A stretch of 23,956 nt of DNA. Source: a virus. Of the stretch, positions 1-23,956 are shown one piece after another. The notes beneath the pieces were generated by a model. That model ran no database searches. It saw only the letters and a program-made list of their open reading frames with translations, and was not told the origin of the DNA. Position 1 is the stretch's first letter; every line of letters begins with the position of its first letter. The stretch lies in the IMG/VR virus record IMGVR_UViG_3300036407_000023, positions 1-23,956 of that record; one strand, written 5' to 3'. The translations under genes and the position numbers were made by a program.

Positions 1-1110
1 TCATGACTCTGCGGCCTCACCATCCTTAGATGAAACCTCCCCTAGCGGCCCGGCTGGGCGACCGGCTCTTTCCATAGCCTGTAGCAGATCGTCGTGGGTC
101 ACGTGGGCATATTTCATCGTGGTCGCGATATCCGCATGCCTGAGCATTTCCTTCGCGAGTCGGATTGAGCCGGACGTCCGGACGAGTCGGGTAGCGGCCG
201 TATGGCGCAGGTCATGGAAGCGGAAATCAGCCACATCGGCTTTCACGTCGCGCCGGAACTGGGTCTTCAGCCCCTCATAAGTGATGGGATAGCGCCGGCC
301 ACGGACTCGACCATCCCGGGTCCGGTCCGCTGTATAGGTAAAGACCGCCTCATCATGGCTGCCCTTCAGGTCCCACAGGAGTTCTCGGACCACCGGCGGC
401 ATAGGGATTGGAGCTAGCTTCTCGCCTTTGCCAAGGATCCAGATCTGCCGGGCGGCCCAATCTAGATCCTTCCAGCGCAGATTGACACATTCGGAGAGGC
501 GGCAGCCTGTCAGGATTGCGAAGCGGACGATCGGGTGAAAATCGGAACGCAGGTTTTCGAAGAGAGCCGTCTCCTCTTCAGATCGGAGCTCTCGGACTCG
601 TTCCTGTGGCTCTTTGAGCAGATGCGTCTTCCAATCGACCGAGCCGACCGGCTCATGCCATACCTTAGCAGCTCGGTGCAGGATCCGGCGCAGGGGCTCC
701 GTCACAGTCCGGTTGACGGTAGACGGCTTGACCGGGCGGCGGGTCTTCCCCTTGTCGACGCGACGCCTCGAGACGAGGCGGGCGACCAGTTCGTCGTTGA
801 TGTCCGTCAGCCGCCGATCAAGCCCGATCGCGTCCTGCAGCCAGGCCAGGGACCATTCAATATCGACTGAGGATGATGCGTACTGTCCGACCTGCTCCCA
901 ATAGAGGGTCGCGGCCCGGCCGAAGGTCATGTACTGGTGGCCGGCAGCCTTCTCGGCTCTTAGTTCGCTTTCAGCCTCGCGCCGCCGCCGTTTTTCGAAC
1001 GCGTCTGCCTCTCGCTTAGACGAGCATTCCGTTGAGCCCTGAAATCGACGACCTCGGATCGTGAAGTCGTAGAAGTAGTGCGGTCGGTCCGGCTTTTTGT
1101 AGGTCGACAT
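1..1110 (-). CDS. int: Tyrosine-family site-specific integrase
   Basis: This 369-residue protein is a phage integrase that would recombine attP with the bacterial attB and, helped by an excisionase, reverse the reaction. The N-terminal ~60 residues form a basic arm-type DNA-binding region, residues ~60-160 the core-binding domain, and ~175-345 the catalytic domain. The catalytic set is visible: R204 in TGCRLSE, a Lys at 228 or 231 in GKGEK, H299 and R302 in HDLRH, H325 in LRHADIATT, and nucleophile Y334 in MKYAH. The length is normal for the family. The ATG at 1110 has a GAGGGC-like ribosome site about 8 bases upstream. Its first ~50 codons lie inside the end of the excisionase-like gene in another frame. 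It is the last gene of the leftward operon, so the attachment site is probably just outside the window on the left. The family call is secure; the integration target is unknown. Confidence 0.96.
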   Translation of the reverse strand: MSTYKKPDRPHYFYDFTIRGRRFQGSTECSSKREADAFEKRRRREAESELRAEKAAGHQYMTFGRAATLYWEQVGQYASSSVDIEWSLAWLQDAIGLDRRLTDINDELVARLVSRRRVDKGKTRRPVKPSTVNRTVTEPLRRILHRAAKVWHEPVGSVDWKTHLLKEPQERVRELRSEEETALFENLRSDFHPIVRFAILTGCRLSECVNLRWKDLDWAARQIWILGKGEKLAPIPMPPVVRELLWDLKGSHDEAVFTYTADRTRDGRVRGRRYPITYEGLKTQFRRDVKADVADFRFHDLRHTAATRLVRTSGSIRLAKEMLRHADIATTMKYAHVTHDDLLQAMERAGRPAGPLGEVSSKDGEAAES

Positions 1111-1738: not shown

Positions 1739-1980
1739 ACCGCCTGCTCCTTGCGAACTTGGAGGGCGCGCCACCGCGCCTCTTGAGCGGCCAAACTCGC
1801 AATCGCATGGACGGCGACACGCGCCTGATCTTCATGGTCGCGGCCGTAGAAAATCGCGATCACGCAATGCTCGGCGTCGTAGACCTTGGTCGCCGAAGCG
1901 CCATCCACGAGGCGCAGCGGAAGTGCGAAGGCACGCTGGACAGGCGGTGGCGGTGCGGAGATCGGAAGCTGCGAGTTCAT
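1735..1980 (-). CDS. Small phage protein of unknown function
   Basis: This 81-residue protein has a proline-rich N-terminus, then a strand-strand-helix pattern: LRLVDGASATKVYDAE, CVIAIFYGRDHEDQARV, then a helix rich in Ala. The pattern resembles short phage proteins that carry a variable loop and an Asp-rich turn followed by an Ala helix, but I cannot name a family. A GTGGAGG ribosome site lies about 12 bases before the ATG. The upstream stop is two bases away and the downstream gene overlaps its stop as ATGA, so it is an integral member of the int operon. No catalytic residues are evident. Confidence 0.7.
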   Translation of the reverse strand: MNSQLPISAPPPPVQRAFALPLRLVDGASATKVYDAEHCVIAIFYGRDHEDQARVAVHAIASLAAQEARWRALQVRKEQAV

Positions 1981-1982
1981 GA

Positions 1983-2168
1983 TCAGCGCGCCTCCACTTC
2001 CTGAGAGGCCTCATTCTGCTTCTGATGCTCCGTCTCCTTGCGGATCTCCTTGTGCAGCGTGTCCATGGCGATAAACGTTTCAGTGCTGGTGAGACCACCA
2101 TGAGCTTCGTCGATCCAGAAGAAGCGGAGCGCACGACGGGCGGCGCTGAGAAGGGTTTCTTCGGCCAT
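1983..2168 (-). CDS. Small charged helical protein of unknown function
   Basis: This is a 61-residue protein starting MAEETLLSAARRALRFFW and ending in a strongly charged helix (KEIRKETEHQKQNEASQEVE). The start at 2168 is chosen because it overlaps the previous stop as TGATG; the longer in-frame version would begin inside the upstream gene with a proline/glycine-rich, unlikely sequence. The C-terminal half could form a coiled coil. Nothing identifies a function. It sits second in the leftward operon and is translationally coupled on the upstream side. Confidence 0.65.
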   Translation of the reverse strand: MAEETLLSAARRALRFFWIDEAHGGLTSTETFIAMDTLHKEIRKETEHQKQNEASQEVEAR

Positions 2169-2350
2169 CACGCCGCCCCCTGGACGATCGCGGCAATGCG
2201 TCCCGCAAACGTCTGGCGGAGCTCGTATTCCGCTTGACGAGCCGCGGCCGACTTCTCGCAAAACCCCTTCATAAGGCTCTGCTGGTAACCAATGCTAAGG
2301 CCGATGGCGCAGACAAGGAAATAAGGGAAGGGATTGGGCATGAAGGCCAT
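2168..2350 (-). CDS. Tiny membrane protein, first gene of the leftward operon
   Basis: This 60-residue protein has a hydrophobic segment at ~6-23 (NPFPYFLVCAIGLSIGYQ) followed by a soluble, charged helix. It may begin at 2350 or at a second ATG at 2341; neither has a strong ribosome site. It is the first gene after the predicted leftward promoter at 2367-2395, with an expected leader of only about 10-20 bases. A perfect 10-bp inverted repeat (2345-2365) covers its start codon region. Its function is unknown. Small membrane proteins at the head of phage early operons are common, but no specific role can be supported. Confidence 0.65.
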   Translation of the reverse strand: MAFMPNPFPYFLVCAIGLSIGYQQSLMKGFCEKSAAARQAEYELRQTFAGRIAAIVQGAA

Positions 2351-2365
2351 CCGTTACGGATGGCC
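2345..2365. repeat. Perfect 10-bp inverted repeat with a 1-base centre over the first start codon
   Basis: GGCCATCCGT and ACGGATGGCC flank a single T. The repeat covers the predicted transcription start and the first ATG of the leftward operon. It differs from the repressor operator family, so it could be the site of a second regulator, or form a hairpin with almost no loop that hinders translation initiation. Confidence 0.7.
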
Positions 2366-2366
2366 A

Positions 2367-2395
2367 ATGTTCCCCGAAACGGGGACTACAGTCAA
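2367..2395 (-). promoter_or_regulatory. Predicted leftward early promoter (PL-like)
   Basis: On the minus strand, TTGACT (2395-2390) is separated by 17 bases from GAACAT (2372-2367). Operator A fills the spacer and operator B touches the -35. The arrangement matches base for base in register the rightward promoter at 9986-10014, which is strong internal support. It should drive the operon ending in the integrase gene and be silenced by the repressor. Confidence 0.75.
2371..2385. promoter_or_regulatory. Repressor operator, left site A
   Basis: TCCCCGAAACGGGGA is a perfect 15-bp palindrome around a central A. It matches the motif found at the repressor/cro region (TCCCC-N5-GGGGA) and lies between the -35 and -10 of the leftward promoter. 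Binding by the repressor is inferred from the shared motif. Confidence 0.8.
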
Positions 2396-2409
2396 TCCCA
2401 AAATGGGAA
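2395..2409. promoter_or_regulatory. Repressor operator, left site B
   Basis: ATCCCAAAATGGGAA keeps the CCC-N5-GGG core of the operator family, with a perfect 5-bp inverted repeat (TCCCA/TGGGA). Its centre is 24 bases from that of site A, and it abuts the -35 of the leftward promoter. Confidence 0.75.
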
Positions 2410-2432
2410 ACAAGCTGCCTTATGCCCCTAAT

Positions 2433-2447
2433 TTGCCGATTTGGGAA
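2433..2447. promoter_or_regulatory. Possible degenerate third left operator
   Basis: TTGCCGATTTGGGAA has an intact right half (TTTGGGAA) and a left half with one core mismatch (GCC for CCC). It lies 38 bases from site B. A three-site array would mirror the three sites at the repressor end, but this copy alone would not be convincing. Confidence 0.4.
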
Positions 2448-2557
2448 ACGCGGCCAACCGGCTCTCTTTGTGGACAAGAAAATTTGTTCGCCTTCGTGCC
2501 CAAGAGGTTAAGGGCGTCTCTGCCCTGTGAACAGAGCTGGCCTGGTTCTGCGCCGCG

Positions 2558-2591
2558 TTGACACTGCGACAAACGTGAACAAACTACGAAC
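2558..2591 (+). promoter_or_regulatory. Rightward promoter with an alphaproteobacterial LexA box
   Basis: TTGACA at 2558-2563 is a consensus -35. GAAC-AAACTAC-GAAC at 2577-2591 is a perfect GAAC-N7-GAAC direct repeat, the known LexA (SOS) box of alphaproteobacteria (GTTC-N7-GTTC on the other strand). The box covers the expected -10 region, so LexA would block transcription of the three small genes that start 20 bases downstream. The -10 itself is poorly defined. Confidence 0.75.
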
Positions 2592-2611
2592 ATCCATCAA
2601 CGGAGGCCCTG

Positions 2612-2866
2612 TTGTCTCTTGGCTTCGTCGCTCCTCCCCAAGCCAGCCAATTACCAATTGAACACCGCTACAGACTGCGGATCAGATGCTCGAACTGCCG
2701 CAACGAGAGCCTCGTCACAGTAACTTTGGGATTGAAGCGCATCAGCGGAACGGAGGTGGACCGGAAGGTTCGAGAAATCGCCGAGCACATCCGCCCGACC
2801 TGCTCCCGATGCAACAGCATGGCCTTCCGAATGGTGGCTTACTTCCCCGACAGGAGATCATCATGA
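2612..2866 (+). CDS. SOS-regulated zinc-ribbon protein
   Basis: This 84-residue protein carries two CxxC pairs, C26-C29 (RCSNC) and C64-C67 (TCSRC), about 35 residues apart, as in a zinc ribbon. The strand-rich start RYRLRIRC and the end AFRMVAYFP fit that fold. I infer a TTG start at 2612 because GGAGG lies five bases before it and no ATG fits. It is the first gene after the LexA box and overlaps the next gene as ATGA. Its function is unknown. A DNA- or protein-binding zinc ribbon released during SOS could act in induction, for example as an antirepressor, but that is speculation from position. Confidence 0.7.
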   Translation: MSLGFVAPPQASQLPIEHRYRLRIRCSNCRNESLVTVTLGLKRISGTEVDRKVREIAEHIRPTCSRCNSMAFRMVAYFPDRRSS

Positions 2867-3120
2867 GAACGACTGAGAAAGCCCAAGGCACCAGCTATTA
2901 CGGCGTCCAAGCCTTCGTGCAGAAGGGCGCCAAGATCATTGCCGAACAGCCTCGCATTGCTACGTCTGAGGCGAATGCTAAGCGCATGGCCGAGAGCCTT
3001 GCGGCGACTAGGGTGGGTGTTATCGCCTTCCGGCGCTCAGGCGACATCGACACGGGCGTCTTCGATGATCCCGTAATCCTGGCCGAGCACGGCACGGTGC
3101 CGTCAGCAGATGGCTTCTGA
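2863..3120 (+). CDS. Conserved-looking small protein in the SOS operon
   Basis: This 85-residue protein begins MRTTEKAQGTSYYGVQAFVQ and shows a strand-strand-helix-strand layout: YYGVQAFVQKGAKIIAEQP, a helix with EANAKRMAESLAA, then RVGVIAFRRSGDID and DDPVILAEHG. It resembles a short family I associate with alphaproteobacterial phages that pairs a 'YYVQxFV..G' start with 'GVVAFxRTGDxDTG', but I have no name for it. The ATG at 2863 overlaps the zinc-ribbon stop and has AGGAG upstream; a longer in-frame version would run through that gene out of frame. No catalytic residues are seen. It should be co-regulated by LexA. Confidence 0.75.
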   Translation: MRTTEKAQGTSYYGVQAFVQKGAKIIAEQPRIATSEANAKRMAESLAATRVGVIAFRRSGDIDTGVFDDPVILAEHGTVPSADGF

Positions 3121-3331
3121 TCCTCCCAATACTCTAGAGCCCCTGCGCGGCCCTCTGATCGCCGCGCTGGAGCGCCATTTAATCGTCTACGGGGCGGGTG
3201 GAGAGACCGAGGCTCGCCGCCTCATCGCGGAGATCGCAGACGAGGTGCTGAAGGAGGTGGAGGAGAAGGGGTTTCCGGGGCAGGAGAGGGCAGGACGCCC
3301 ACTCAGACCTGAAGCCCGAAGATGTACATGA
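3110..3331 (+). CDS. Hypothetical small helical protein, third gene of the SOS operon
   Basis: This 73-residue protein overlaps the previous gene by 11 bases. Residues ~12-55 look helical with alternating charge (LIAALERHLIVYG, ETEARRLIAEIADEVLKEVEEKG); the last 20 residues are basic and unstructured. The ribosome site is weak and the tail may not be conserved. Position and direction suggest it belongs to the LexA-controlled unit. No family is recognised. Confidence 0.5.
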   Translation: MASDPPNTLEPLRGPLIAALERHLIVYGAGGETEARRLIAEIADEVLKEVEEKGFPGQERAGRPLRPEARRCT

Positions 3332-3374
3332 ACACAAAGCCGAACAAGAACCCGTGGGTGGCGAGCCTGAGCAT
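3303..3374 (-). CDS. Possible 23-residue membrane peptide
   Basis: This is a very short frame encoding a hydrophobic peptide with the core FLFGFVFMYIFG. A GAGGGG ribosome-site match lies nine bases before the ATG. That site is inside a 6-bp inverted repeat (GCCCCT/AGGGGC, 3381-3401), which could hide it in a hairpin. Such peptides are often missed, but a frame this short can occur by chance and it overlaps the end of an opposite-strand gene. Confidence 0.3.
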   Translation of the reverse strand: MLRLATHGFLFGFVFMYIFGLQV

Positions 3375-3476
3375 GAGAGTGCCCCTCGTTACCGAAGGGG
3401 CAACAGCTGAATATCGCCTAGGTTCCTAGCTTCTGGCATTGGTACAGCGTCCAGAAGACCGTCCGGAGCAGAGGGC

Positions 3477-3641
3477 TCAGGACTGAAACAGCAGCAGGAA
3501 CGCCACTCCGGAAGCTCCAATGAGCGTGATCACGACCAGGGCCAGCCAGAAGCGCTTCGGGCGGGCGCCAGGCTTGAGGCTTCCAAACCAGCCGCGCTCG
3601 CGAGGCGTGTTGTTGTTTGCGTGACCCGGGTCGCCGAACAT
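3477..3641 (-). CDS. Small tail-anchored-type membrane protein
   Basis: This 54-residue protein starts MFGDPGHANNNT. It has a basic, glycine-rich soluble part (RGWFGSLKPGARPKRFW) and one strongly hydrophobic segment near the end (LALVVITLIGASGVAFLLLF). The ATG at 3641 is preferred over an upstream TTG at 3692, because that longer form would translate through a strong terminator hairpin at 3655-3688. The ribosome site is weak. Function is unknown; the layout suggests a cytoplasmic tail with a C-terminal membrane anchor. Confidence 0.5.
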   Translation of the reverse strand: MFGDPGHANNNTPRERGWFGSLKPGARPKRFWLALVVITLIGASGVAFLLLFQS

Positions 3642-3654
3642 GCCAGCACCACGT

Positions 3655-3688
3655 AAAAAGCCCCTCCGGAGTGCGCCAGGGGAGGGGC
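3655..3688 (-). terminator. Rho-independent terminator, leftward
   Basis: On the minus strand, GCCCCTCC and GGAGGGGC form a perfect 8-bp GC stem with a 13-base loop, followed immediately by TTTTT. It would end leftward transcription coming from the 46-residue gene at 3863-4003. Confidence 0.8.
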
Positions 3689-3862
3689 TCAAGGTACCGG
3701 CGCCGGCCGTGGAACCAGCCTGGGGGGCAGAATGGCACCGGGTATGAGTAACCCGTCAGGTTTGGGAGGGTTCCTCTCACTCTTCATCAGCGGAACTCCC
3801 CTCAGCTGCCCTCGTGGCCGCCCTGGTGCTCGAGCTCTGGATCGTGGCGAGGCTGCTGTTTT

Positions 3863-4003
3863 TTAGGGACGACCTCTAGGGGCCTCAAGTTTATCGAGTT
3901 TGCGCAGCACTTGTCGCCGGGCTTGCTGAGCAGATACCGGTTTAGGAGTGACCGCGAGCGTCACTCGCTCCCCAGTGCGAGGATTGAAGATAGTGAGCGG
4001 CAT
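3863..4003 (-). CDS. Small basic protein of unknown function
   Basis: This 46-residue protein begins MPLTIFNPRTGERVTLAV and ends in an Arg/Lys-rich helix (QQARRQVLRKLDKLEAPRGR). The ATG at 4003 has GGGGGA eight bases upstream, so I take it in preference to the start at 4048. It stands alone, with a palindrome at 4038-4052 upstream and the terminator at 3655-3688 downstream, which fits a monocistronic unit. The basic helix could bind nucleic acid, but nothing proves it. Confidence 0.5.
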   Translation of the reverse strand: MPLTIFNPRTGERVTLAVTPKPVSAQQARRQVLRKLDKLEAPRGRP

Positions 4004-4037
4004 AGGAATTCCCCCACTCTCCCGTGAACAAAGGGTC

Positions 4038-4052
4038 GCCGTTAACAACGGC
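4038..4052. repeat. Palindrome upstream of the 46-residue gene
   Basis: GCCGTT-AAC-AACGGC is a perfect 6-bp inverted repeat about 35 bases before the ATG at 4003. Its size and place suit a regulator-binding site for that leftward gene; the regulator is unknown. Confidence 0.45.
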
Positions 4053-5006
4053 CAAGTTTAGGGAGTGTCACCCAAAAAGGCAGTAACAGCTTGCTCTCAA
4101 TCAGATCAAAACAACATAACTCTAAAGACTTATTTTATGTATTTTTCGATCTTCTACAGCTTAGCTTGCCTTCCGCTCAGTCATAAGGAATGCGACACCT
4201 ATAGTCTCAAGCTCTTCTGCCAAATGGATGGCTCCGAATGCTGCTGTGGGAGGAAGACACCTCAAGCGAACACGCGCAGGATCAACGTCAGTCATAGCCC
4301 CCTGGGATGGTTCTGGGGCTGTGGCGAGGACGGTGGGGCGTTCGCCAATTGGTCTCCTGTAACAGGCGGCGCCCCGCCGTCCGCTCAACTGCTCGGCGTG
4401 GGTCATCGGCAGGCCTGATCACCCTCGACTGGATGGGAAACGGAACAGTTCCGCCTACTCCGGGCAGCTTTCTGGTGCGGAGAGATCAGCGCAGTATTCC
4501 TGACCGTGCCCTGCCTCGTGATACTAACCGTGAAGTTCGGACCTTTGTCGGAAGCCAGCAGCAAAGAGGTCGATTAAAAAGGTTCTGTCACTCCAGCCTC
4601 GTGATTCGGGCGGGGAATGCGACAAGGATGTTATCAGCTACGATTAAACTTGGCTTTAATTGATGTTGCCGATGTGCCAGCACCCCTTTCCCTTCGAACT
4701 GTTGGCTCGCAATCCGGCCAATCTCGGGAAAAGCTCTCAGGTTGCCAGTAGCACTCCCTCGCGCTCGTCCTGGGCGGGAGCCATCCTTGCCTTTGCAGCG
4801 AGCTTGGTTTTCTGGCCTGGATCGTCTTGGCGCCCCTGATTGGGCGCCGACGGGCCGGGCGACCGCGGATGTACCGGCGCCCGGCCTATTCCCCTTATCG
4901 GCCTCGAGTTGCCAGACCGAGACTGGTAGCATCGCGCGCAGAGTTCGTTTCGTGGGACTACCCGGCTGTATTACCTCGGCCCCGCCGGTTTCGGGAGCTT
5001 CGACCG
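4053..5006. other. About 950 bases without a confident gene; AT-richer at its left end
   Basis: Bases ~4065-4220 are visibly more AT-rich than the rest of the window. Reading frames in this stretch have poor composition and lack ribosome sites. I see a 13-bp palindrome CGGAACAGTTCCG at 4441-4453 and one weak leftward frame at 4161-4295. There is no tRNA, terminator or clear promoter. It may be decayed cargo or regulatory DNA. Confidence 0.5.
4161..4295 (-). CDS. Doubtful 44-residue protein
   Basis: This short frame starts MTDVDPARVRLRC and contains a plausible helix (FGAIHLAEELETIGVAFLM). GGGGG lies only two or three bases before the ATG, which is too close for a good ribosome site. The composition is more protein-like than that of its neighbours, but there is no other support. 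Confidence 0.25.
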   Translation of the reverse strand: MTDVDPARVRLRCLPPTAAFGAIHLAEELETIGVAFLMTERKAS

Positions 5007-5219
5007 ATGACCTCTTCGTTTGAGCGGCAACTGACCGAACTCCGCGGACACATCCAGGCGCTCGAGGCCAAGCTGGAGGAGCAGGCGCAGCGTATCGAGA
5101 CCCTTGAGCGCGCGGCAGGAAAGGCACCAGCCCCTCATGAAGTCGTTGCCAAGGGCCAACTCTCTGAGAGCCAAACAGAGGGTCGGGCGGACGTCCCCTC
5201 CGCCATACTGGACGTCTAA
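5007..5219 (+). CDS. Short coiled-coil protein
   Basis: In this 70-residue protein, residues ~4-38 form a regular heptad pattern (FERQLTELRGHIQALEAKLE, then EQAQRIETLERAA), a clear coiled coil that could dimerise or trimerise. The remainder is polar and probably disordered. The ATG at 5007 has GGGAG nine bases upstream; a longer in-frame start at 4827 would add an Arg/Pro-rich segment with no protein character. It is isolated on the + strand beside a gene-poor stretch. No function can be assigned. A frame of 179 codons on the opposite strand is taken as its shadow. Confidence 0.55.
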   Translation: MTSSFERQLTELRGHIQALEAKLEEQAQRIETLERAAGKAPAPHEVVAKGQLSESQTEGRADVPSAILDV

Positions 5220-5365
5220 GCCGCGAGTCATCGCCCGCCCTCGCGACCTCGCTGGTGCTGCTGTTCGGGGTTGTGTGTGCGGTGGCGGGCTAGGACATAG
5301 ACGCGTGAGCCCCGTGGCCTTGCCGGACCCGGGGTTTGTTCCTCACAGGGTATGCCGAGGGCCAA

Positions 5366-5599
5366 CTACCCTGGCGGCTCCAGGGATACGGAAAGCGTCA
5401 CAGTCACAACCGGCTCTGGCCCACTGTCGCGGGCGCGGACTTCAATCTTCCTGTGCCGGCGCGCCTGCTCCTTAGTGATGGCCGCCGCTAGTTCCACAGC
5501 CTCGATCCGCGCCTGCTCTTTCGACGCCAGGTCCACACCGTCCTGGTCTTCGGACCACGGCTGATCGTCGTAGCTCAAATCGAAAAAGTACCGAGGCAT
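5366..5599 (-). CDS. DUF6894-type small protein
   Basis: This 77-residue protein begins MPRYFFDLSYDD, then has a DQDGVDLASKEQARIEAVELA helix and a terminal strand pair (IEVRARDSG, VVTVTLSVSLE). The layout, with 'PRYFFDL' at the start, an acidic 'DxDGxxL' turn and an Ala-rich helix, is that of the short DUF6894 family, which is abundant in Methylobacteriaceae and related Rhizobiales; the match is from memory. The ATG at 5599 follows GAGGAC. An upstream ATG at 5623 would add eight residues. Function is unknown. The family is mostly chromosomal, so its presence may reflect acquired host DNA. Confidence 0.75.
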   Translation of the reverse strand: MPRYFFDLSYDDQPWSEDQDGVDLASKEQARIEAVELAAAITKEQARRHRKIEVRARDSGPEPVVTVTLSVSLEPPG

Positions 5600-5766
5600 A
5601 GTCCTCGTCAACGTCGCAAGCACCCGATCAGGTCCAAATGCGACTACGCATGCGCGGAAACCCCACCGCCTTGCCAGGTGTGCGGTTTGCGCCAGATTGT
5701 AGGTAAGCGCGCTCTCTGGAGGGCCGCCGACACCAGTGGCCGGGGTCCCCCGGGGAAGAGAGCGGG

Positions 5767-6576
5767 ATGAGGATCCGAGTGGGCTGCGAGCTGAGCTACG
5801 ACGTCCCGAAGCCGACCCCGATGATCGCCATCCTGAACGTGCACTATTCGCGCTTCGGGAACCTCGAGAGCCCCGATCGTCTTGTGACCACGCCTGCGGT
5901 TCCGATCGCGAGCTACCGAGACAGCTTCGGCAACTGGTGCAACCGCCTTGTTGCGCCGCCTGGGCGGTTCACCCTCAGCACAGACGGTATTATTCAGGAC
6001 GACGGAACTCGCGATCCCGTCGATGAGAACGCCCTGCAGCACTTCGTCGAGGACCTACCTGCTGAGACGCTGCAATTCCTGCTCGGCAGCCGTTATTGCG
6101 AAACCGATGCCCTCTCCGATGAGGCTTGGCGGCTTTTCGGACACACGCCGCTCGGATGGCCGCGCGTGCAAGCGATATGCGATTTCGTCCACCGGCACGT
6201 GACCTTCGGCTACGAGCACGCCCGAGCTACCCGGACGGCTGCCGAGACCTACGCTGAAGGTCGAGGCGTCTGCCGGGACTACACTCATCTCGCCATCGCG
6301 TTCTGCCGCTGCCTTAACATCCCAGCGCGCTACTGCACGGGATACATCAGCGACATCGGCGTTCCGCTCCCCCACGGCCCGATGGATTTTGCCGCTTGGA
6401 TGGAAGTCTATCTCGGCGGCCGTTGGTGGGCGTTCGATCCGCGTAACAACTCGCCTCGGACTGGGCGCATTCTGATCGCTCAGGGGCGTGATGCAGCTGA
6501 TGTGCCTCTGACCCATACCTTTGGGCCGACGGAACTCGTAGGGTTCCGGGTCTGGACCGACGAGATCAAGCCCTGA
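5767..6576 (+). CDS. Transglutaminase-like (papain-fold) protein lacking the usual catalytic His
   Basis: This 269-residue protein has the two-part layout of bacterial transglutaminase-like proteins. An N-terminal beta domain (1-110) is followed by a papain-fold core. The nucleophile is C169 in GRGVCRDYTHLA, followed by FCRCLNIPARYCTGY. The third triad position is D224 in WAFDPRNN. Where the family normally has DFHAW, this protein reads DFAAW (A209), so the general-base His appears to be replaced by Ala. The tail (GRILIAQGRDAADV, THTFGPTELVGF) is also typical. No signal peptide is seen, so it would be cytoplasmic. The ATG at 5767 has GGAAG upstream. It stands between divergent and convergent small genes and has no phage role that I know of, so it is probably cargo. 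It may be inactive, or belong to a subgroup with a different mechanism. Confidence 0.9.
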   Translation: MRIRVGCELSYDVPKPTPMIAILNVHYSRFGNLESPDRLVTTPAVPIASYRDSFGNWCNRLVAPPGRFTLSTDGIIQDDGTRDPVDENALQHFVEDLPAETLQFLLGSRYCETDALSDEAWRLFGHTPLGWPRVQAICDFVHRHVTFGYEHARATRTAAETYAEGRGVCRDYTHLAIAFCRCLNIPARYCTGYISDIGVPLPHGPMDFAAWMEVYLGGRWWAFDPRNNSPRTGRILIAQGRDAADVPLTHTFGPTELVGFRVWTDEIKP

Positions 6577-6602: not shown

Positions 6603-6833
6603 TCACCTCTTCCTTTCCGGCGTCCAGTCGCAGGGGACCTCGCGCAGAGCCGAGGAGGCGAAATCACGAAGGAGCAGCATTCCCGGCTTCCATGTCCTTG
6701 CATTGCTGAGGGACCTCGCTCGGAACTCGAACTGCACCCGACCGTCAGGCCAGAGCCTCACGACACGCCAGACCTTGCCGTTATCGCCCAAGTAGCACTT
6801 TCCGACCGTGATGCTCTCGGGAGGGACGCTCAT
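6603..6833 (-). CDS. Array paralogue A (GKC/EVPC small-protein family)
   Basis: This 76-residue member begins MSVPPESITVGKCYL and ends REVPCDWTPERKR, with invariant C13 and C68. Between them lie KVWRVVRLWPDGRVQFEFR, which reads as a beta hairpin, and RDFASSALREV, a short helix. The start overlaps paralogue B's stop as ATGA. It is the last gene of the leftward run and converges on the transglutaminase-like gene. A small beta-barrel (SH3-like) fold is an inference from the alternating strands. I know no function for this family. Confidence 0.75.
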   Translation of the reverse strand: MSVPPESITVGKCYLGDNGKVWRVVRLWPDGRVQFEFRARSLSNARTWKPGMLLLRDFASSALREVPCDWTPERKR

Positions 6834-7078
6834 CGGCCAGCCTCATCGGCGTTAGGGGTCCAGTCGCAGGGGACCTCGCGGAGAGTGGCCTCGGCAAAGG
6901 CGCTCAGATCCGCCGTGCCGCCGGCCCAGACAAAAGCTCGGGTCTCGGTGGCATCCCGGCTTTCGAAACGGACACGGCCGCTCGGCAGGACATGCGTCAC
7001 CAGGCGGACCCAGCGATGTCGCTCACCTTCGAGCAGGTAGCACTTTCCGGGTTCGATGCTCTCGGGAGGGAGGGTCAC
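6830..7078 (-). CDS. Array paralogue B (GKC/EVPC family)
   Basis: This 82-residue member starts with GTG at 7078, which overlaps the previous stop as GTGA. It begins with TLPPESIEPGKCYL and ends LREVPCDWTPNADEAGR, with C13 and C71 conserved. It carries a longer central loop than A (DATETRAFVWAGGT). A reading frame extending upstream to 7180 runs through paralogue C out of frame and is rejected. The nearest relatives within the array appear to be A and F, which share the LREVPCDW ending. Confidence 0.75.
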   Translation of the reverse strand: MTLPPESIEPGKCYLLEGERHRWVRLVTHVLPSGRVRFESRDATETRAFVWAGGTADLSAFAEATLREVPCDWTPNADEAGR

Positions 7079-7314
7079 GCCTTGCTTTCGCTTTCTGATC
7101 TGGGGTCCGGAGGACAGGACACCTCCTTGACGGCATGCGCAGCAAAAGTGTCCCGCTTGACAACAAACCGGCGCGGCCATCCCCGTTTGAGTGCCGACTG
7201 GTCTATCTCGTGAACGACCACCTTCCCCTGCTCATGCAAGATCACTCGCCGGACTTTTCCGGTGTCCATCAGGTAGCACTTGCCGACCCGGATGAGTGCG
7301 GGAGGGAGGCTCAT
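7075..7314 (-). CDS. Array paralogue C (GKC/EVPC family)
   Basis: This 79-residue member begins MSLPPALIRVGKCYLMDTGK. It is the most divergent at the end: the usual EVPCDW reads EVSCPPDP, but the second Cys is kept. The central part (VRRVILHEQGKVVVHEID) is again two strands, followed by FAAHAVKEV. Start and stop are coupled to its neighbours by ATGA and GTGA overlaps. Confidence 0.75.
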   Translation of the reverse strand: MSLPPALIRVGKCYLMDTGKVRRVILHEQGKVVVHEIDQSALKRGWPRRFVVKRDTFAAHAVKEVSCPPDPRSESESKA

Positions 7315-7550
7315 AGCCCGCTCGTCGCTCCGAAGTCAGGATCGTAGTGGCAGGGGACCTCCTTCGCGACATCAGCGGCGAACCGCTCGACGGACACCTT
7401 CCGCTGAGCGGGCCACTTGCCCCTCATCATCTTCGGCCCGCGCGCTTCATAGGAGACGATCCCGTCGCTGATGCTGAGAACCCGCCGGACCTGATTGCCT
7501 GGGGTCGCGAAACACTTGCCGACCTGGATACTCTCAGGAGGGATGCTCAC
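7311..7550 (-). CDS. Array paralogue D (GKC/EVPC family)
   Basis: This 79-residue member starts with GTG at 7550 and is coupled as GTGA to the gene at 7547-7759. It begins SIPPESIQVGKCFATPGNQV, continues RRVLSISDGIVSYEARG, FAADVAKEVPC and ends HYDPDFGATSGL. The ending differs from the CDWTP ending of A, B and E, so D and C may form a second subgroup. Both Cys residues are conserved. Confidence 0.75.
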   Translation of the reverse strand: MSIPPESIQVGKCFATPGNQVRRVLSISDGIVSYEARGPKMMRGKWPAQRKVSVERFAADVAKEVPCHYDPDFGATSGL

Positions 7551-7759
7551 TCGATCTCCTCCGAGGGAGCATGCCCATCGATCCAGGCTGTTGCCATAGC
7601 GATCGCCGACTCGCGATCGTGCCCCGCAGCCACGACTGGTTGGCCGCCAGGGAGAGCGAAGATGGCGACCCAGTCCATCGGCGTCTGGCGCACCGAGAGC
7701 TTGAACCCGCGATAGGTCATCACCTCAAGATGGGGATCGAAATCGCTCCCTTCTGCCAT
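7547..7759 (-). CDS. Small strand-helix protein in the lysogeny operon
   Basis: This 70-residue protein begins MAEGSDFDPHLEVMTYRGFK. Two or three strands (YRGFKLSVRQ, WVAIFALPGGQPVVAAG) precede a helix (DRESAIAMATAWIDG). The ATG at 7759 has GGGGA/GAGGTG upstream; an extension to 7942 is Arg-rich and runs through the neighbouring gene. Its fold pattern resembles the neighbour at 7795-8016, so the two may be distant relatives. No family name is offered. Confidence 0.7.
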   Translation of the reverse strand: MAEGSDFDPHLEVMTYRGFKLSVRQTPMDWVAIFALPGGQPVVAAGHDRESAIAMATAWIDGHAPSEEIE

Positions 7760-7794
7760 CACCTCATCCCCTGCTCTGAGTGTGGGGCGCTGGT

Positions 7795-8016
7795 CTAGCG
7801 TCTGCCGCGTGGTGGGTTGGACTGAGTGTTCCCCTTCAGCAACCGCTCTACGGCATCTCGCCCGTTCTTCAAGGCATCCTGCTCGGACCGGAACAGGCGA
7901 TCCGACCGCTCCAGCATCTTGCCGTGCATCCGAATAGCCCATCCGAACGATCCGTCACCCTTCGGAGAAGGGGTGACTTCCAGAGCATAAGGGTAGGTTG
8001 GGTTGTCACTGCTCAT
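7795..8016 (-). CDS. Small strand-helix protein of unknown function
   Basis: This 73-residue protein has strands YPYALEVTPSPKGDGSFGWA and IRMHGKMLERSDRLF, then a helix SEQDALKNGRDAVERLLKG and a basic tail. The layout (Trp-containing strand, turn, 'S..DA...G..AVE..L' helix) is common among short proteobacterial proteins of unknown role. The ribosome site before the ATG at 8016 is not obvious. It lies 35 bases upstream of the 7547-7759 gene within the leftward run. Confidence 0.7.
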   Translation of the reverse strand: MSSDNPTYPYALEVTPSPKGDGSFGWAIRMHGKMLERSDRLFRSEQDALKNGRDAVERLLKGNTQSNPPRGRR

Positions 8017-8047
8017 TGGAGGTTTATGCCACGGGAGTCCAAGAGCG

Positions 8048-8323
8048 TCAGCCCTTCCTCAGCCTCACCCCAGGCCCGCCGCCGTTCTCCGAGATGAACT
8101 CAGGGCCGGCTGCTTCTGAGGAAGGAGCAGCACCATGAACGGCACTGAGCAACTCCGGGCAGCCGAATGGCTCATCAGCTGGGGAGTTAAGCACCGCGGC
8201 TGTGCGCTGACAGGTGTGGGTGAACTCTCGAATGTCTCCCGTCAGGCCCGGGTTTGTGGCGTTGCCCTGATCTGAGACGTGGAAGCCGCACTGAGGGCAG
8301 GTGACCAGGTGTTTCTGGGGCAT
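8048..8323 (-). CDS. Small Cys-containing protein, possible zinc binder
   Basis: This 91-residue protein starts MPQKHLVTCPQCGFHVSDQG. C9 and C12 form a CxxC knuckle, and C38 (HTCQRT) with H36 or C55 might complete a metal site. The C-terminal half is Ala/Gly/Pro-rich and probably disordered. AAGGA lies eight bases before the ATG at 8323, a good ribosome site. It lies between paralogues E and D and their associated genes. A zinc-dependent role is possible but the fourth ligand is uncertain. Confidence 0.65.
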   Translation of the reverse strand: MPQKHLVTCPQCGFHVSDQGNATNPGLTGDIREFTHTCQRTAAVLNSPADEPFGCPELLSAVHGAAPSSEAAGPEFISENGGGPGVRLRKG

Positions 8324-8369
8324 TACGGCTTCCTTACGCCTTCAGGTGCTCGGTAAGAACATGAGCGTA

Positions 8370-8444
8370 TCACAGGCCTCCAAGGAGATTGACCGTGACG
8401 GTCGCAAGAAGCCCGAGTATGGCGATCGTGAGCAGGATAGTCAT
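8370..8444 (-). CDS. 24-residue single-span membrane peptide
   Basis: This short frame encodes a peptide that is hydrophobic throughout (TILLTIAILGLLATVTV, then NLLGGL). GAGG lies eight bases before the ATG at 8444, and the frame lies in an otherwise empty gap between two coding genes of the same direction. It resembles small membrane peptides that regulate or anchor partner proteins. Its shortness keeps confidence moderate. Confidence 0.45.
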   Translation of the reverse strand: MTILLTIAILGLLATVTVNLLGGL

Positions 8445-8472
8445 GGTCCAGCCCTCGTCCTCCGGATCATCG

Positions 8473-8721
8473 TCATTTCCGCGGTGACGGCTCACTCACC
8501 CCCTCCGGCGTCCAGTCGCAGGGGACCTCGCGCTCGACCAAGTGGGCGAAGGCGTTGAGCTCCAAGACCCCCGCCTTCCAGCCAAAGGCTCTAACGATCA
8601 CCCCTGATCGAAGCTCGTAGTGCACCTGGTTTCCGGGCAGGATGCGGAGGACTCTTGCGACCTTGTCGCCCGAGATCAGAAAGCACTTGCCGACGATATC
8701 GGTCGCGGGAGGGACGCTCAT
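8473..8721 (-). CDS. Array paralogue E (GKC/EVPC family)
   Basis: This 82-residue member begins MSVPPATDIVGKCFLISGDK and keeps VARVLRILPGNQVHYELRSG, NAFAHLVEREVPC and a DWTPEG ending. The PPESI element is replaced by PPATD, the strongest change at the start. The ATG overlaps the stop of paralogue F as ATGA. Both Cys residues are present. E and F are separated from A-D by three or four unrelated small genes, so the array is split. Confidence 0.75.
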   Translation of the reverse strand: MSVPPATDIVGKCFLISGDKVARVLRILPGNQVHYELRSGVIVRAFGWKAGVLELNAFAHLVEREVPCDWTPEGVSEPSPRK

Positions 8722-8954
8722 AGCTTTGGCTCATCAGTCCCCGGCGCCCAGTCGCAGGGGACCTCGCGCAGGAGCATCGCGGCAAAGGAACGTCGCTCCT
8801 GAATGCCGGGGATCCAGTGAGATTTCGGCGTCCGCTGCTCATACTGGACCCGCTCGTCAGGCAGGATGTGAACCACCCGTCGGATCCGCACGTCTCGGCC
8901 GCCCTCCGCCAGATAGCACTTGCCGACCTCGATGCTCTCGGGAGGGATGCTCAT
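8718..8954 (-). CDS. Array paralogue F (GKC/EVPC family)
   Basis: This 78-residue member begins MSIPPESIEVGKCYLAEGGR and ends LREVPCDWAPGTDEPKL, with an RIRRVVHILPDERVQYEQR centre. Its ATG overlaps the stop of the 52-residue membrane protein as TGATG. It is the copy nearest the repressor gene, and its DNA shares a long near-identical 3' segment with A, B and E. Confidence 0.75.
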   Translation of the reverse strand: MSIPPESIEVGKCYLAEGGRDVRIRRVVHILPDERVQYEQRTPKSHWIPGIQERRSFAAMLLREVPCDWAPGTDEPKL

Positions 8955-9112
8955 CAGCGGAGCCGCAAGGACAGCAGATTACTGAGCACAGCAGCCGGCT
9001 CAGCAAGGAGCGTCGCCAAGCTTGCCGCATCACTCAAAGCGAAGAGCCAAAAGCAAGCTCCCGCCCCAATGCTGAGCGTGAGATCCGCCAGGAGGATCGT
9101 CCGCCACTTCAT
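8954..9112 (-). CDS. 52-residue membrane protein next to the repressor
   Basis: This frame is too short to be picked up by usual length cut-offs. It begins MKWRTILLADLTLSIGAGAC and continues FWLFALSDAASLATLLAEP. The first hydrophobic stretch (~5-26) should span the membrane; a second, weaker one lies near the end. GAGGTGAGAGA precedes the ATG, a good ribosome site, and its stop overlaps the start of paralogue F. It is the first gene after the repressor, 33 bases on, so it should be expressed in lysogens. A membrane protein paired with soluble partners in this position recalls exclusion systems such as lambda RexB, but there is no sequence evidence of kinship. Confidence 0.6.
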   Translation of the reverse strand: MKWRTILLADLTLSIGAGACFWLFALSDAASLATLLAEPAAVLSNLLSLRLR

Positions 9113-9145
9113 TCTCTCACCTCATCCCCTTCTCTGAGTATGAGG

Positions 9146-9925
9146 TTAGGACAGCGGCAGCGAATTGAAGATTGAGCGGACAATGGCGAGGATTTCGACC
9201 TTCCGGCCATCTTCCTGCTCCTCCCCGGTGAACATCTTCCAGGGGATCACGATCGGCTTGTGCTTTGGGTTTGTGGACCGTGGGTGGAACTCAACCCGAT
9301 CCTCGTAGATTTCCACCTGCTTGACGGAACGCTCTCTTAGATGGCCGCCATCTCGAGCCTGCTCAACCACCACCACCATGCCGTCGCGAATGGGCACGCG
9401 CCCCTTCAGGCTCTCAAACTTGAGACAGACAAGTTGGTCACCAGCCATGATTGGTCGAGGCTTTAGGGCATTCATTGAGTCGCCGCCCACATCGAAAGTG
9501 GCCACTTCGGCCCAAGGGTAGTCAGGATCGCGAGGCAGTGCGCGCGGCCTTGGCTCCTCGTCACCAAACTCATCGACCGGGCGAAATGCACCAGCTTCTA
9601 CAATGCCGCCGTGGCTTGCCATGACGAAGCCAGGATTGGTCTCGTGGAGTTCGCCACCGGGCATGTCCAGGAGCCCCGGCCGCTTTTCAGGCAGATGGCT
9701 CTCTGACTGATCCACCGGCTGTACGCTCCGCAGCAGGTCCTGCATGATGACAGTACGCGGGACCCCAAAAGCCTTAGCGGCGGCCTCAATCGTATTCTTT
9801 TTGAGTTCCCGTTCGCCACGCTCGAGCTTGATGTAGCCGCCCTTGGAAATGCCCATGGCATCTGCGGCCTGCGGCTGCGTCCAGCCCTTCCGCTCCCGAA
9901 GCTCTTTGAGAATACTTGTCCCCAT
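9146..9925 (-). CDS. cI: CI/LexA-type phage repressor with self-cleavage domain
   Basis: This 259-residue repressor maintains lysogeny. Residues ~4-62 form an HTH_3 domain (ILKELRERKGWTQPQAADAM, GISKGGYIKLERGER). A linker leads to an S24 peptidase-type domain. The cleavage bond is probably A111-G112 in VEAGAFRP, the nucleophile S150 in GGDSMN, and the general base K202 in RSVKQVEIY. These are the hallmarks of RecA-stimulated autocleavage. I start it at 9925, because the extra 33 residues of the longer frame (to 10024) would cover the operators and the Cro start and have no domain character. The ribosome site GGGAG is 13 bases away, which is far, and the ATG sits at the centre of operator C, which suggests autoregulation. 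It is divergent from the Cro-like gene, and eleven small genes follow it with no clear terminator. Confidence 0.95.
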   Translation of the reverse strand: MGTSILKELRERKGWTQPQAADAMGISKGGYIKLERGERELKKNTIEAAAKAFGVPRTVIMQDLLRSVQPVDQSESHLPEKRPGLLDMPGGELHETNPGFVMASHGGIVEAGAFRPVDEFGDEEPRPRALPRDPDYPWAEVATFDVGGDSMNALKPRPIMAGDQLVCLKFESLKGRVPIRDGMVVVVEQARDGGHLRERSVKQVEIYEDRVEFHPRSTNPKHKPIVIPWKMFTGEEQEDGRKVEILAIVRSIFNSLPLS

Positions 9926-9933
9926 AACGGGGA
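9919..9933. promoter_or_regulatory. Repressor operator, right site C (over the repressor start codon)
   Basis: TCCCCATAACGGGGA matches the operator motif with one mismatch in its symmetry. The repressor's ATG (9925-9923) lies within it. Binding here would block the repressor's own expression, or initiation at that codon, when repressor is abundant. Confidence 0.75.
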
Positions 9934-9961
9934 GAATGCTCCCGCTGCAGAAATTTGTCGC

Positions 9962-9976
9962 TTCCCATTTAGGGTA
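9962..9976. promoter_or_regulatory. Repressor operator, right site D (weak)
   Basis: TTCCCATTTAGGGTA keeps the CCC-N5-GGG core with weaker flanks. It lies between the repressor start and the rightward promoter, 43 bases from C and 34 from E, where a middle operator would modulate the repressor promoter. Confidence 0.6.
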
Positions 9977-9985
9977 ATTTTCCCG

Positions 9986-10014
9986 TTGACAAACATCCCC
10001 ATTTTGGGGATCAT
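9986..10014 (+). promoter_or_regulatory. Predicted rightward early promoter (PR-like)
   Basis: TTGACA (9986-9991), a 17-base spacer and GATCAT (10009-10014). Operator E occupies the spacer beginning four bases after the -35, the same register as in the leftward promoter. Transcription should start near 10020-10022, almost at the ATG of the Cro-like gene. Confidence 0.8.
9996..10010. promoter_or_regulatory. Repressor operator, right site E
   Basis: TCCCCATTTTGGGGA, with A and T just outside, gives an almost perfect 17-bp palindrome. It is the best match of the family and blocks the rightward promoter spacer. Confidence 0.8.
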
Positions 10015-10022
10015 ACGTGCCC

Positions 10023-10253
10023 ATGAAGCTGCTCGATTACATGCGTGCGGAAAACCTTGACGACCAGGCCATGGCCGGCCGCATCGGCGGCTGCTCTGCC
10101 CACGCCGTGAAGAAGTGGAAATACGGCGAAAGATCCCCAGACCCCGATCGGATCATTCGTATCGAAGAGGTCACTGGCGGCAAGGTCAGCCTCCGCGACT
10201 GGTCCTTACGCAACCGGCCCCCACGCGCCTTCGCTGAAAACGAGGCCGCTTGA
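10023..10253 (+). CDS. cro: Cro-like HTH repressor
   Basis: This 76-residue protein is largely one helix-turn-helix domain: MKLLDYMRAENLDDQAMAGR, then IGGCSAHAVKKWKYGERSPD and PDRIIRIEEVTGG. It should compete with CI for the operators and favour lytic growth. I take the ATG at 10023 over the in-frame GTG at 10017, because the predicted transcript starts at about 10020-10022. That makes the message essentially leaderless, as no ribosome site is visible. It is divergent from the repressor and is the first gene of the rightward early operon. Its stop overlaps the next start as TGATG. Confidence 0.88.
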   Translation: MKLLDYMRAENLDDQAMAGRIGGCSAHAVKKWKYGERSPDPDRIIRIEEVTGGKVSLRDWSLRNRPPRAFAENEAA

Positions 10254-22357: not shown

Positions 22358-23956
22358 ATGGGGCTTCTGTCATGGTGGCGCGGCCGCACGATCCGGCTCA
22401 CGGATGGCGCCTTCTGGTCGTCGTACTTCAACGGAGACACGTGGGCGGGAGAGAGTGTCGGAACGCATGGAGCCTTGCAGCTTGCCGCCTGGTGGGCTTG
22501 CGTTCGCCTCCTGTCCGAGACTGTCGCGACACTGCCGCTGTTCGTCTACCGGATGGGAGCAGATGGCAGCCGTGAGCTCGACCGCGACCACGCGCTCTAT
22601 GGTCTTCTCCACGACAGTCCCAATGCAGACCAGACCGCGGTCGAGTTCTGGGAAGGGCAGATCGCTGCCCTGTGCACGGCGGGCAACGGCTATTCGGAGA
22701 AGGTCTTCAGCGCAGGACGCCTCGTCGCCCTGCAGCCCCTCATGCCGGACTGCGTACGGGTCCGGCGCGATCCTGACGGGGCTCTCGTCTACGATGTCAC
22801 TGATCGCGGAAGGGTCGAGTCCTTCAGCGAAGACAAGATCTTCCACATCCGAGGGTTCGGGGGAGGGGACCAGGGGCTCTCGCCGGTCGCCTACGCGCGC
22901 CAGACGCTTGGCATCACAGTGGCGACGGAGAAGGCCGCTGGGAAGGCTTTCGCGCAGGGGCTCCGAGCCTCCGGTTTCTTCACGGCTCCTGCGGGCGCAA
23001 AGCTCACCCCGGAGCAGAGGGAGCAGTTCAGGCGCACATTCATTGACCCGTACGTTGGAGGGGATGCATCCGCGAAGGTCGGTCTCCTCGAGGCCGGCTT
23101 TGACTTCAAGCCGGTCACGATCAGCCTTCACGACGCTGAGCTTCTGCTCTCGCGGCGCTGGAACGTGGAGGAGATCTGCCGCTGGCTCAACGTTCCGCCG
23201 ATCCTCATCGGCCATGCCGGGCAGGGTCAGACGATGTGGGGATCCGGGGTCGAGCAGATCATGCTCGGCTGGCTCACGCTCGGGCTGCGGCCCTATCTCA
23301 GCCGGATCGAGCAGGCGATCGCGAAGCGCCTGATGACGCCGGCCGATCGCAACGCACGCCTCAAGGCAGAGTTCAGCGTCGAAGGTCTTCTCCGGGCGGA
23401 CAGCGCGTCCCGGGCCGCTTTCCTGAGCACGATGGTGCAGAACGGGATCTACACCCGGAACCGGGCCCGCGCACTGGAGAACGAGCCTCGCGATCCCGAT
23501 CCCATGGCGGACCGGCTGACGGTCCAGTCCAACCTCATCGCCCTGTCGAAGCTCGGCGAGAGCGGAGCCGATCCCGCGGCTCAGGCTCGCTCGGCGCTCA
23601 TGAGCCTGCTCGGACCTGAGATCGATGCGCTCGTCGAGGTGCGGTCACGGACGATCCCTCAGGACCACAGCGGGCCACTGCCCCAGGACAAGGAGCTTGC
23701 CATGCCGGCCCTCAAGAGCAGCCTCCACCGCAAGGAAGCCTCGCTCAAGATCCGCGGCTTTGATCTGCAGATCAAAGCCGCCCAGGACGACGGCACCTTC
23801 TCGGGCTACGGATCCGTCTACGGAGTCGTCGACAGCTACAACGAGGTGGTCGCGCCCGGCGCGTTCGACGAGAGCCTCGCGGAAATCGCTGCCAAGGGGC
23901 GGTCGGTCCCGGTGCTCTGGCAGCTGCCTGACGTCAGCACTCACGAGACAAACTGA
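22358..23956 (+). CDS. Portal protein fused in frame to a truncated prohead protease
   Basis: This 532-residue frame starts one base after terL. Residues 1-~430 are an HK97-type portal: AAWWACVRLLSETVATLPLF, then FHIRGFGGGDQGLSPVAYAR, and the typical SRRWNVEEICRWLNVPPILI (265-284). The portal forms the ring through which DNA enters the head. No stop separates it from residues 449-532, which are the N-terminus of a prohead protease (DGTFSGYGSVYGVVDSYNEV, VAPGAFDESL, VPVLWQ). After LWQ, where the family continues with a His-Asp segment, it reads LPDVSTHETN and stops. The catalytic His and Ser are therefore absent. The portal call is secure; the fusion may be real or reflect a sequencing error or decay. 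Confidence 0.9.
   Translation: MGLLSWWRGRTIRLTDGAFWSSYFNGDTWAGESVGTHGALQLAAWWACVRLLSETVATLPLFVYRMGADGSRELDRDHALYGLLHDSPNADQTAVEFWEGQIAALCTAGNGYSEKVFSAGRLVALQPLMPDCVRVRRDPDGALVYDVTDRGRVESFSEDKIFHIRGFGGGDQGLSPVAYARQTLGITVATEKAAGKAFAQGLRASGFFTAPAGAKLTPEQREQFRRTFIDPYVGGDASAKVGLLEAGFDFKPVTISLHDAELLLSRRWNVEEICRWLNVPPILIGHAGQGQTMWGSGVEQIMLGWLTLGLRPYLSRIEQAIAKRLMTPADRNARLKAEFSVEGLLRADSASRAAFLSTMVQNGIYTRNRARALENEPRDPDPMADRLTVQSNLIALSKLGESGADPAAQARSALMSLLGPEIDALVEVRSRTIPQDHSGPLPQDKELAMPALKSSLHRKEASLKIRGFDLQIKAAQDDGTFSGYGSVYGVVDSYNEVVAPGAFDESLAEIAAKGRSVPVLWQLPDVSTHETN
23702..23956 (+). pseudogene. Prohead protease, truncated to its first 84 residues
   Basis: An internal ATG with AAGGAG seven bases upstream could start a separate protease product. 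Only ~74 residues match the family (usual length roughly 180-230); the match ends at VLWQ and an unrelated ten-residue tail precedes TGA. The ten-base palindrome CTGACGTCAG at 23930-23939 falls just after the break, which may mark an insertion or deletion junction. The product could not cleave scaffold or capsid without its active-site residues. Confidence 0.6.

Follow-up and report, generated by a model that had tools for sequence, protein, structure and literature searches.

Six related genes for small, predicted SH3-like barrel proteins between the repressor and integrase of a temperate phage

Introduction

What might six diverged copies of one small gene do in the accessory segment of a temperate phage, and what is their history? 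This question is raised by the virus contig IMGVR_UViG_3300036407_000023, whose whole length of 23,956 bases was analysed and is referred to here as the window. An earlier note on this DNA had described a six-member array of an undescribed protein family, shaped by repeated duplication with divergence under constraint, and had suggested inhibitors, exclusion or immunity factors as examples of what its members could be. We have examined the organization of the genes, the conservation and predicted fold of their products, and their relatives in phages and bacteria.

Genomic context of the array

The record, the left part of a temperate tailed phage, has an integrase (1-1110, minus strand), a helix-turn-helix/excisionase-like gene and a CI-type repressor with HTH_3 and Peptidase_S24 domains (9146-10024, minus strand), and from 10,429 on the genes run rightward and comprise a CII-like gene, RusA, AAA_24, a Cas4-type exonuclease, a primase/helicase, an antiterminator, the small and large terminase subunits and the portal. 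The six genes lie between the repressor and the integrase, downstream of the former and on its strand, in the leftward accessory segment. A related phage, with a terminase 83% identical to that of the window, has different cargo in the same segment downstream of its repressor, which supports the view of the array as accessory cargo without telling its role. The family itself was absent at E≤0.01 from 42 records, which comprise the transglutaminase contig and further phages whose terminases are related. No repressor relatives were found among viral contigs when sought by repressor patterns, and a promoter scan found no promoter for the array.

At its end, the array meets a convergent transglutaminase-like gene of alphaproteobacterial type (5767-6576, plus strand). 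Two alphaproteobacterial genomes have genes beside rsgA-groES-groEL to which it is 62-65% identical, and it resembles one on a Methylocapsa plasmid; it is probably a host gene taken along by the phage.

Organization of the six genes

All six coding frames reported earlier are present, and they align over their whole length as homologous ORFs of 76-82 residues. They are encoded on the minus strand, which the earlier note had left unstated. In the direction of transcription, member 1 (78 residues, 8718-8954) is followed by member 2 (82 residues, 8473-8721), member 3 (79 residues with a GTG start, 7311-7550), member 4 (79 residues, 7075-7314, the most divergent of the six), member 5 (82 residues, 6830-7078) and, last, member 6 (76 residues, 6603-6833). 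Member 5, second in the order of the earlier note, starts at a GTG at 7078, the longer ORF of 116 residues reaching to 7180 being a mechanical extension. Starting from one member, each of the other five is found at E-values from 1e-21 to 7e-8, so that the homology is not due to chance, and GC3 is 0.70-0.81 in all six ORFs, as in coding frames. The overlaps described earlier are indeed found, with ATGA at 6830-6833, 7311-7314 and 8718-8721 and GTGA at 7075-7078 and 7547-7550, and a TGATG junction joins member 1 at 8954 to a 52-residue ORF. Given these overlapping starts and stops, translation of the array is probably coupled. The description as a six-member array thus stands as to the number of genes but not as to their continuity, since they are arranged as four plus two (6603-7550 and 8473-8954), with three or more unrelated small genes between the two groups, at 7547-8323.

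These interrupting genes, all on the minus strand, are a 70-residue ORF (7547-7759) that shares the GTGA overlap with member 3, a gene for a 73-residue protein (7795-8016), and a 91-residue ORF with a CPQC motif and no family match (8048-8323); a possible hydrophobic peptide of 24 residues (8370-8444) also lies between members 2 and 3. The 73-residue protein is 68% identical to one encoded at 7503-7718 of a contig from a proteobacterial metagenome-assembled genome (L036, see below), directly downstream of a pair of family genes, and it is the only other neighbour common to the window and that contig. It is a conserved neighbour of the family and a candidate partner. Its structural model is a low-confidence beta-beta-alpha arrangement (pLDDT 64), and was dropped as evidence on account of this poor quality.

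The 52-residue ORF, which has a hydrophobic segment (8954-9112, minus strand), lies between the repressor and member 1. Between the repressor and the array we also noted a 29-nt element, CCTCATACTCAGAGAAGGGGATGAGGTGA (9117-9145, minus strand), with a second copy at 7759-7787 (minus strand) that precedes the ATG start of the 70-residue ORF at 7759. The two copies are 90% identical, and each is located directly 5' of a small gene of the leftward segment. A nearly identical stretch is found in a related phage (L129, near 9554-9573, minus strand) 5' of a different small gene, and the exact stretch of that phage was found in no other viral contig. The element may serve as a common promoter, operator or translation signal.

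Sequence conservation and predicted fold

Fourteen alignment columns are invariant in all six members: P4, P5, G11, K12, C13, V24, V33, E36, F58, A59, E65, V66, C68 and P72. These include the two cysteines of the GKC and EVPC motifs, in agreement with the earlier note. In the wider family, only the first cysteine (GKC) is invariant (18 of 18 sequences), the second being missing from three chromosomal copies, which excludes a disulfide common to the whole family. A basic RRV..GRV strand is conserved among the six, and on reading the sequences we saw no long hydrophobic segment indicative of a membrane or signal segment. Across the 13 sequences from the window and the metagenome-assembled genome, the N-terminal segment and the first strand are nearly fixed (0.3-0.8 bits) and most of the core varies little (0.3-1.5 bits), whereas variability peaks in the loops at residues 16-20 and 38-49 (2.3-2.4 bits) and is high in strand 4 too (2.1 bits). 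Taken with the structural model, these per-column values bear out the contrast between a variable loop and a conserved core that had been noticed earlier.

A confident AlphaFold (AF2) model of member 3, built from an alignment of 18 sequences, was obtained with a pLDDT of 85.9 and a pTM of 0.75. It places strands at residues 13-15, 21-28, 31-37, 50-53 and 63-65, with a helix at 54-60 before the last strand, which makes a small SH3-like barrel of five strands and a short helix a plausible fold. The earlier note had named unrelated folds as the outcome that would speak against a single family; the one copy modelled gave this SH3-like fold. Its neighbours in the PDB are weak (best Foldseek E-value 0.13, Z at most 6.1, a level that may be background), and SH3-like barrels predominate among them, for example Tudor, KOW/Spt5, EF-P and FeoA domains. 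With solved-structure matches this weak, little can be read from the fold class as to the ligand.

Relation to known protein families

The family was taken to be undescribed, and this holds for the curated libraries, as no trustworthy match was obtained in Pfam, NCBIfam, PHROGs or PADLOC. PADLOC-DB gave no match at E≤1 for the six members and four neighbours, and Pfam KOW was matched neither by the six at E≤10 nor by the 18 family members at E≤1. A limited open-access search of the literature found no description of the family. Likewise, tblastn searches of phages and plasmids with single members returned no convincing relative, because single sequences are too divergent. Several candidate relatives were discarded, namely a spurious viral-contig match (L023) that is the antisense of a microvirus gene, weak matches in L025-L029 (E 0.003-0.01) whose translations are without the family motif and which were judged to be due to chance, as was a weak match in a Microvirga plasmid.

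More distant kin were reached by fold and by profile, independently. The best viral fold match is a 66-residue protein of Sinorhizobium phage phiM12 (E 3.2e-4, TM 0.65/0.77), and when the family profile was run on the phiM12 genome the top match was the 66-residue CDS SmphiM12_435 (19.6 bits, as compared with at most 10.7 in 2000 shuffles). Given their equal length and their occurrence in one phage, the two are taken to be the same protein. SmphiM12_435 belongs to phrog_8958 and has clear relatives among Caulobacter phages (25 records), phiCbK and jumbo phages included. The remote homology is supported by the reverse profile search and by the fold, but a direct PHROG profile match is absent, as phrog_8958 is not among the PHROGs matched at E≤1 by any of the 18 members; the phiCbK protein (D865_gp193) was reached only by profile-profile comparison (P 69%). 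The members of phrog_8958 (SmphiM12_435, D865_gp193 of phiCbK and their kin) share with our family the small SH3-like barrel, an I-x-x-G-x-x-Y start, the RRV strand and an SFA-x-W helix, but they are shorter (66-69 residues), have neither the PP start nor the cysteines of GKC and EVPC, and occur in lytic phages, at one place per genome in all but one of the records found. Although the family proper is thus absent from the libraries searched and has no name there, it branches remotely from a kind of small phage barrel that is already known, as are its fold and distant kin.

Three other known proteins are also comparable. DUF7244 of KanT1 and T1 (Drexlerviridae) is likewise a standalone phage SH3 protein, encoded beside lysis genes and proposed to aid cell-wall binding (PMC13164509), whereas the window genes lie between repressor and integrase and have no Pfam match. 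MotB of T4 has a predicted KOW domain, is an early DNA-binding protein, copurifies with H-NS and improves phage fitness (PMC7827196, PMC6070864); it is comparable as a phage accessory protein with a domain of the SH3-like class and a proposed part in host takeover, but we found no sequence relation between it and our family. SH3-like homologues of the type B dihydrofolate reductase DfrB, a barrel of similar size (about 78 residues) with a VQIY active-site motif, have been reported in phages and Methylobacterium among hypothetical genes (PMC9835603). This motif is missing from all 18 family sequences, and no profile match to DfrB chains in the PDB was obtained at E≤10, so that a DfrB assignment was dropped.

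Occurrence in bacterial genomes and history of the copies

The family is not specific to phages. A proteobacterial metagenome-assembled genome (LB5_4) holds seven copies on three contigs (L035-L037), mostly in pairs. No other carrier was found among 299 genomes drawn from its own family or among 79 of its near relatives, the best first-look candidates being scored in the larger draws. On contig L036, a histidine kinase is 80% identical to one of Microvirga terrae and 78% to one of M. ossetica and adjoins a PRC-barrel gene, as in those Microvirga plasmids; on these grounds the contig is probably misbinned and would come from a Microvirga-like organism. At least one contig of this bin therefore looks misplaced, and the bin's family shows no other carrier. 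The family of genome G775 was ruled out as the source lineage.

In one other family, four genomes each carry a single chromosomal copy; three of these copies are nearly alike, and two adjoin groESL. All chromosomal relatives fall within one order of alphaproteobacteria. Of the six window genes, member 3 is nearest to them. The copies of G880 and G883 are near groESL, that of G882 is near an aminotransferase-type gene, that of G672 is beside some of the same small genes, and G284 has a divergent single copy. Their surroundings are ordinary chromosomal ones, and no phage structural genes were seen nearby on reading. Small genes of three types recur near family copies (L040, L042, L038, L036), the FSRPFSLDGVEGT..PAGTY type, the KxxVGQMVDFVPSQRG type and the DUF1488-like MLNFPNE type; accompanying the chromosomal copies, they form a set of small unexplained genes in Hyphomicrobiales. 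A link of the family with the transglutaminase-like gene was set aside, as in two bacterial genomes a similar gene is convergent with the family copy but 4-5 kb off, with RsgA-GroES-GroEL in between, which may be a coincidence.

In the tree, the window copies are interleaved with those of the metagenome-assembled genome. Forcing the six into one clade costs 20.6 log units, with a p-AU of 0.045 obtained on 80 columns for a group tested after the tree had been seen, and recent tandem duplication within this phage is thereby mildly rejected. Of the earlier proposal of duplication with divergence under constraint, a paralogous set with variable loops over a conserved core is retained, but the set does not look like a recent local expansion. 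On this sequence evidence, which we regard as weak, the six look like older paralogs common to phage and metagenome-assembled replicons.

Proposed function and alternative explanations

Our preferred reading, tentative at a probability of roughly 0.4, is that the six are small soluble SH3-like accessory genes of the moron type, whose products act as cytoplasmic binding modules with loops diversified for different partners. The small size, solubility and variable loops of these predicted barrels, their number and their place in an accessory segment are consistent with binding modules that have different partners. As moron-type cargo of the leftward repressor-integrase segment, the genes would be expressed in the lysogen, the host being most likely a soil alphaproteobacterium of Hyphomicrobiales type, and the members would probably be made by coupled translation via their overlapping start and stop codons. 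Judging from fold and variability, each predicted barrel would most likely be a cytoplasmic binding module. Its fold, or a surface common to the copies, would be maintained by the conserved core and the N-terminal PPxSIxVGKC segment, and the differing loops (about residues 16-20 and 38-49) would give different copies different partners among host or foreign proteins or nucleic acids. The chromosomal copies outside prophages imply that a phage-specific role is not required. A bolder version appears improbable to us: the array would be a repertoire of same-fold barrels with diversified loops, each blocking or tethering a different protein of the host or of a competitor, and phages and Hyphomicrobiales replicons would exchange copies from a common gene pool.

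For the inhibitor, exclusion or immunity roles proposed earlier we found no evidence in particular, in view of the missing PADLOC match and membrane segment. Temperate phages often carry immunity or exclusion genes downstream of the repressor, and the position of the array, the varying cargo at this place in a relative and the several diverged copies would suit prophage immunity, superinfection-exclusion or anti-phage genes, each copy directed against a different incoming phage. Many exclusion proteins, however, have the membrane segment that is lacking here, and the distant relatives are found in lytic T4-like and jumbo phages, and the close ones are ordinary chromosomal genes, settings in which exclusion by a prophage would have little point; we consider this reading quite unlikely. 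No better placed is a counter-defence set, in which the small proteins would inhibit different host defence systems. The members' small size, solubility, copy number and variable loops agree with it, and Nip of SPbeta is a precedent for a phage counter-defence protein with SH3-like domains, but these are only predicted and Nip, at 279 residues, is much unlike our proteins in size (PMC11984713). Moreover, no known anti-defence protein was matched in Pfam, PHROGs or NCBIfam, and we regard such a role as very doubtful.

The weak fold neighbours, which include Spt5 KOW, ribosomal L2 and EF-P, and the conserved basic RRV..GRV strand would be compatible with KOW/Tudor-like nucleic-acid binders acting on host DNA, RNA or nucleoid proteins, for which the DNA binding of MotB and its copurification with H-NS offer a precedent (PMC7827196). 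Since the solved-structure matches are at background level, Pfam KOW is unmatched and no nucleic-acid site is indicated, we hold this to be rather unlikely. Doubtful to a similar degree is that the six are host-derived accessory genes with a bacterial regulatory or metabolic role, carried as passengers and multiplied by recombination between copies. The single copies that four genomes of one family carry in their chromosomes, the paired copies of the Microvirga-like contig with the 73-residue neighbour protein, and the adjoining transglutaminase of bacterial type all point in this direction; against it, distant relatives also occur in lytic phages, and the bacterial occurrence is rare and patchy, as expected for mobile cargo.

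The analysis assigns genes that are nameless in curated libraries to a wider family with a predicted fold, and brings into one group temperate-phage cargo, accessory genes of soil alphaproteobacteria and an unexplained small protein of the lytic phages phiM12 and phiCbK, which are well studied. If the copies bind different partners, the set would amount to a compact, naturally occurring library of small binding barrels and would make the role of phrog_8958 directly testable.

Other features of the phage genome

Three observations concern the remainder of the window. From the integrase region to the transglutaminase-like gene (about 1800-5700), nearly 4 kb hold few convincing genes. A small ORF in this stretch (2686-3120, plus strand) is common to the window and the related phage L129. 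At the right end (22358-23956), comparison with another relative (L130) reveals terminase genes that are 75-83% identical and a portal of only 25% identity, so that a sharp mosaic boundary falls directly after the terminase.
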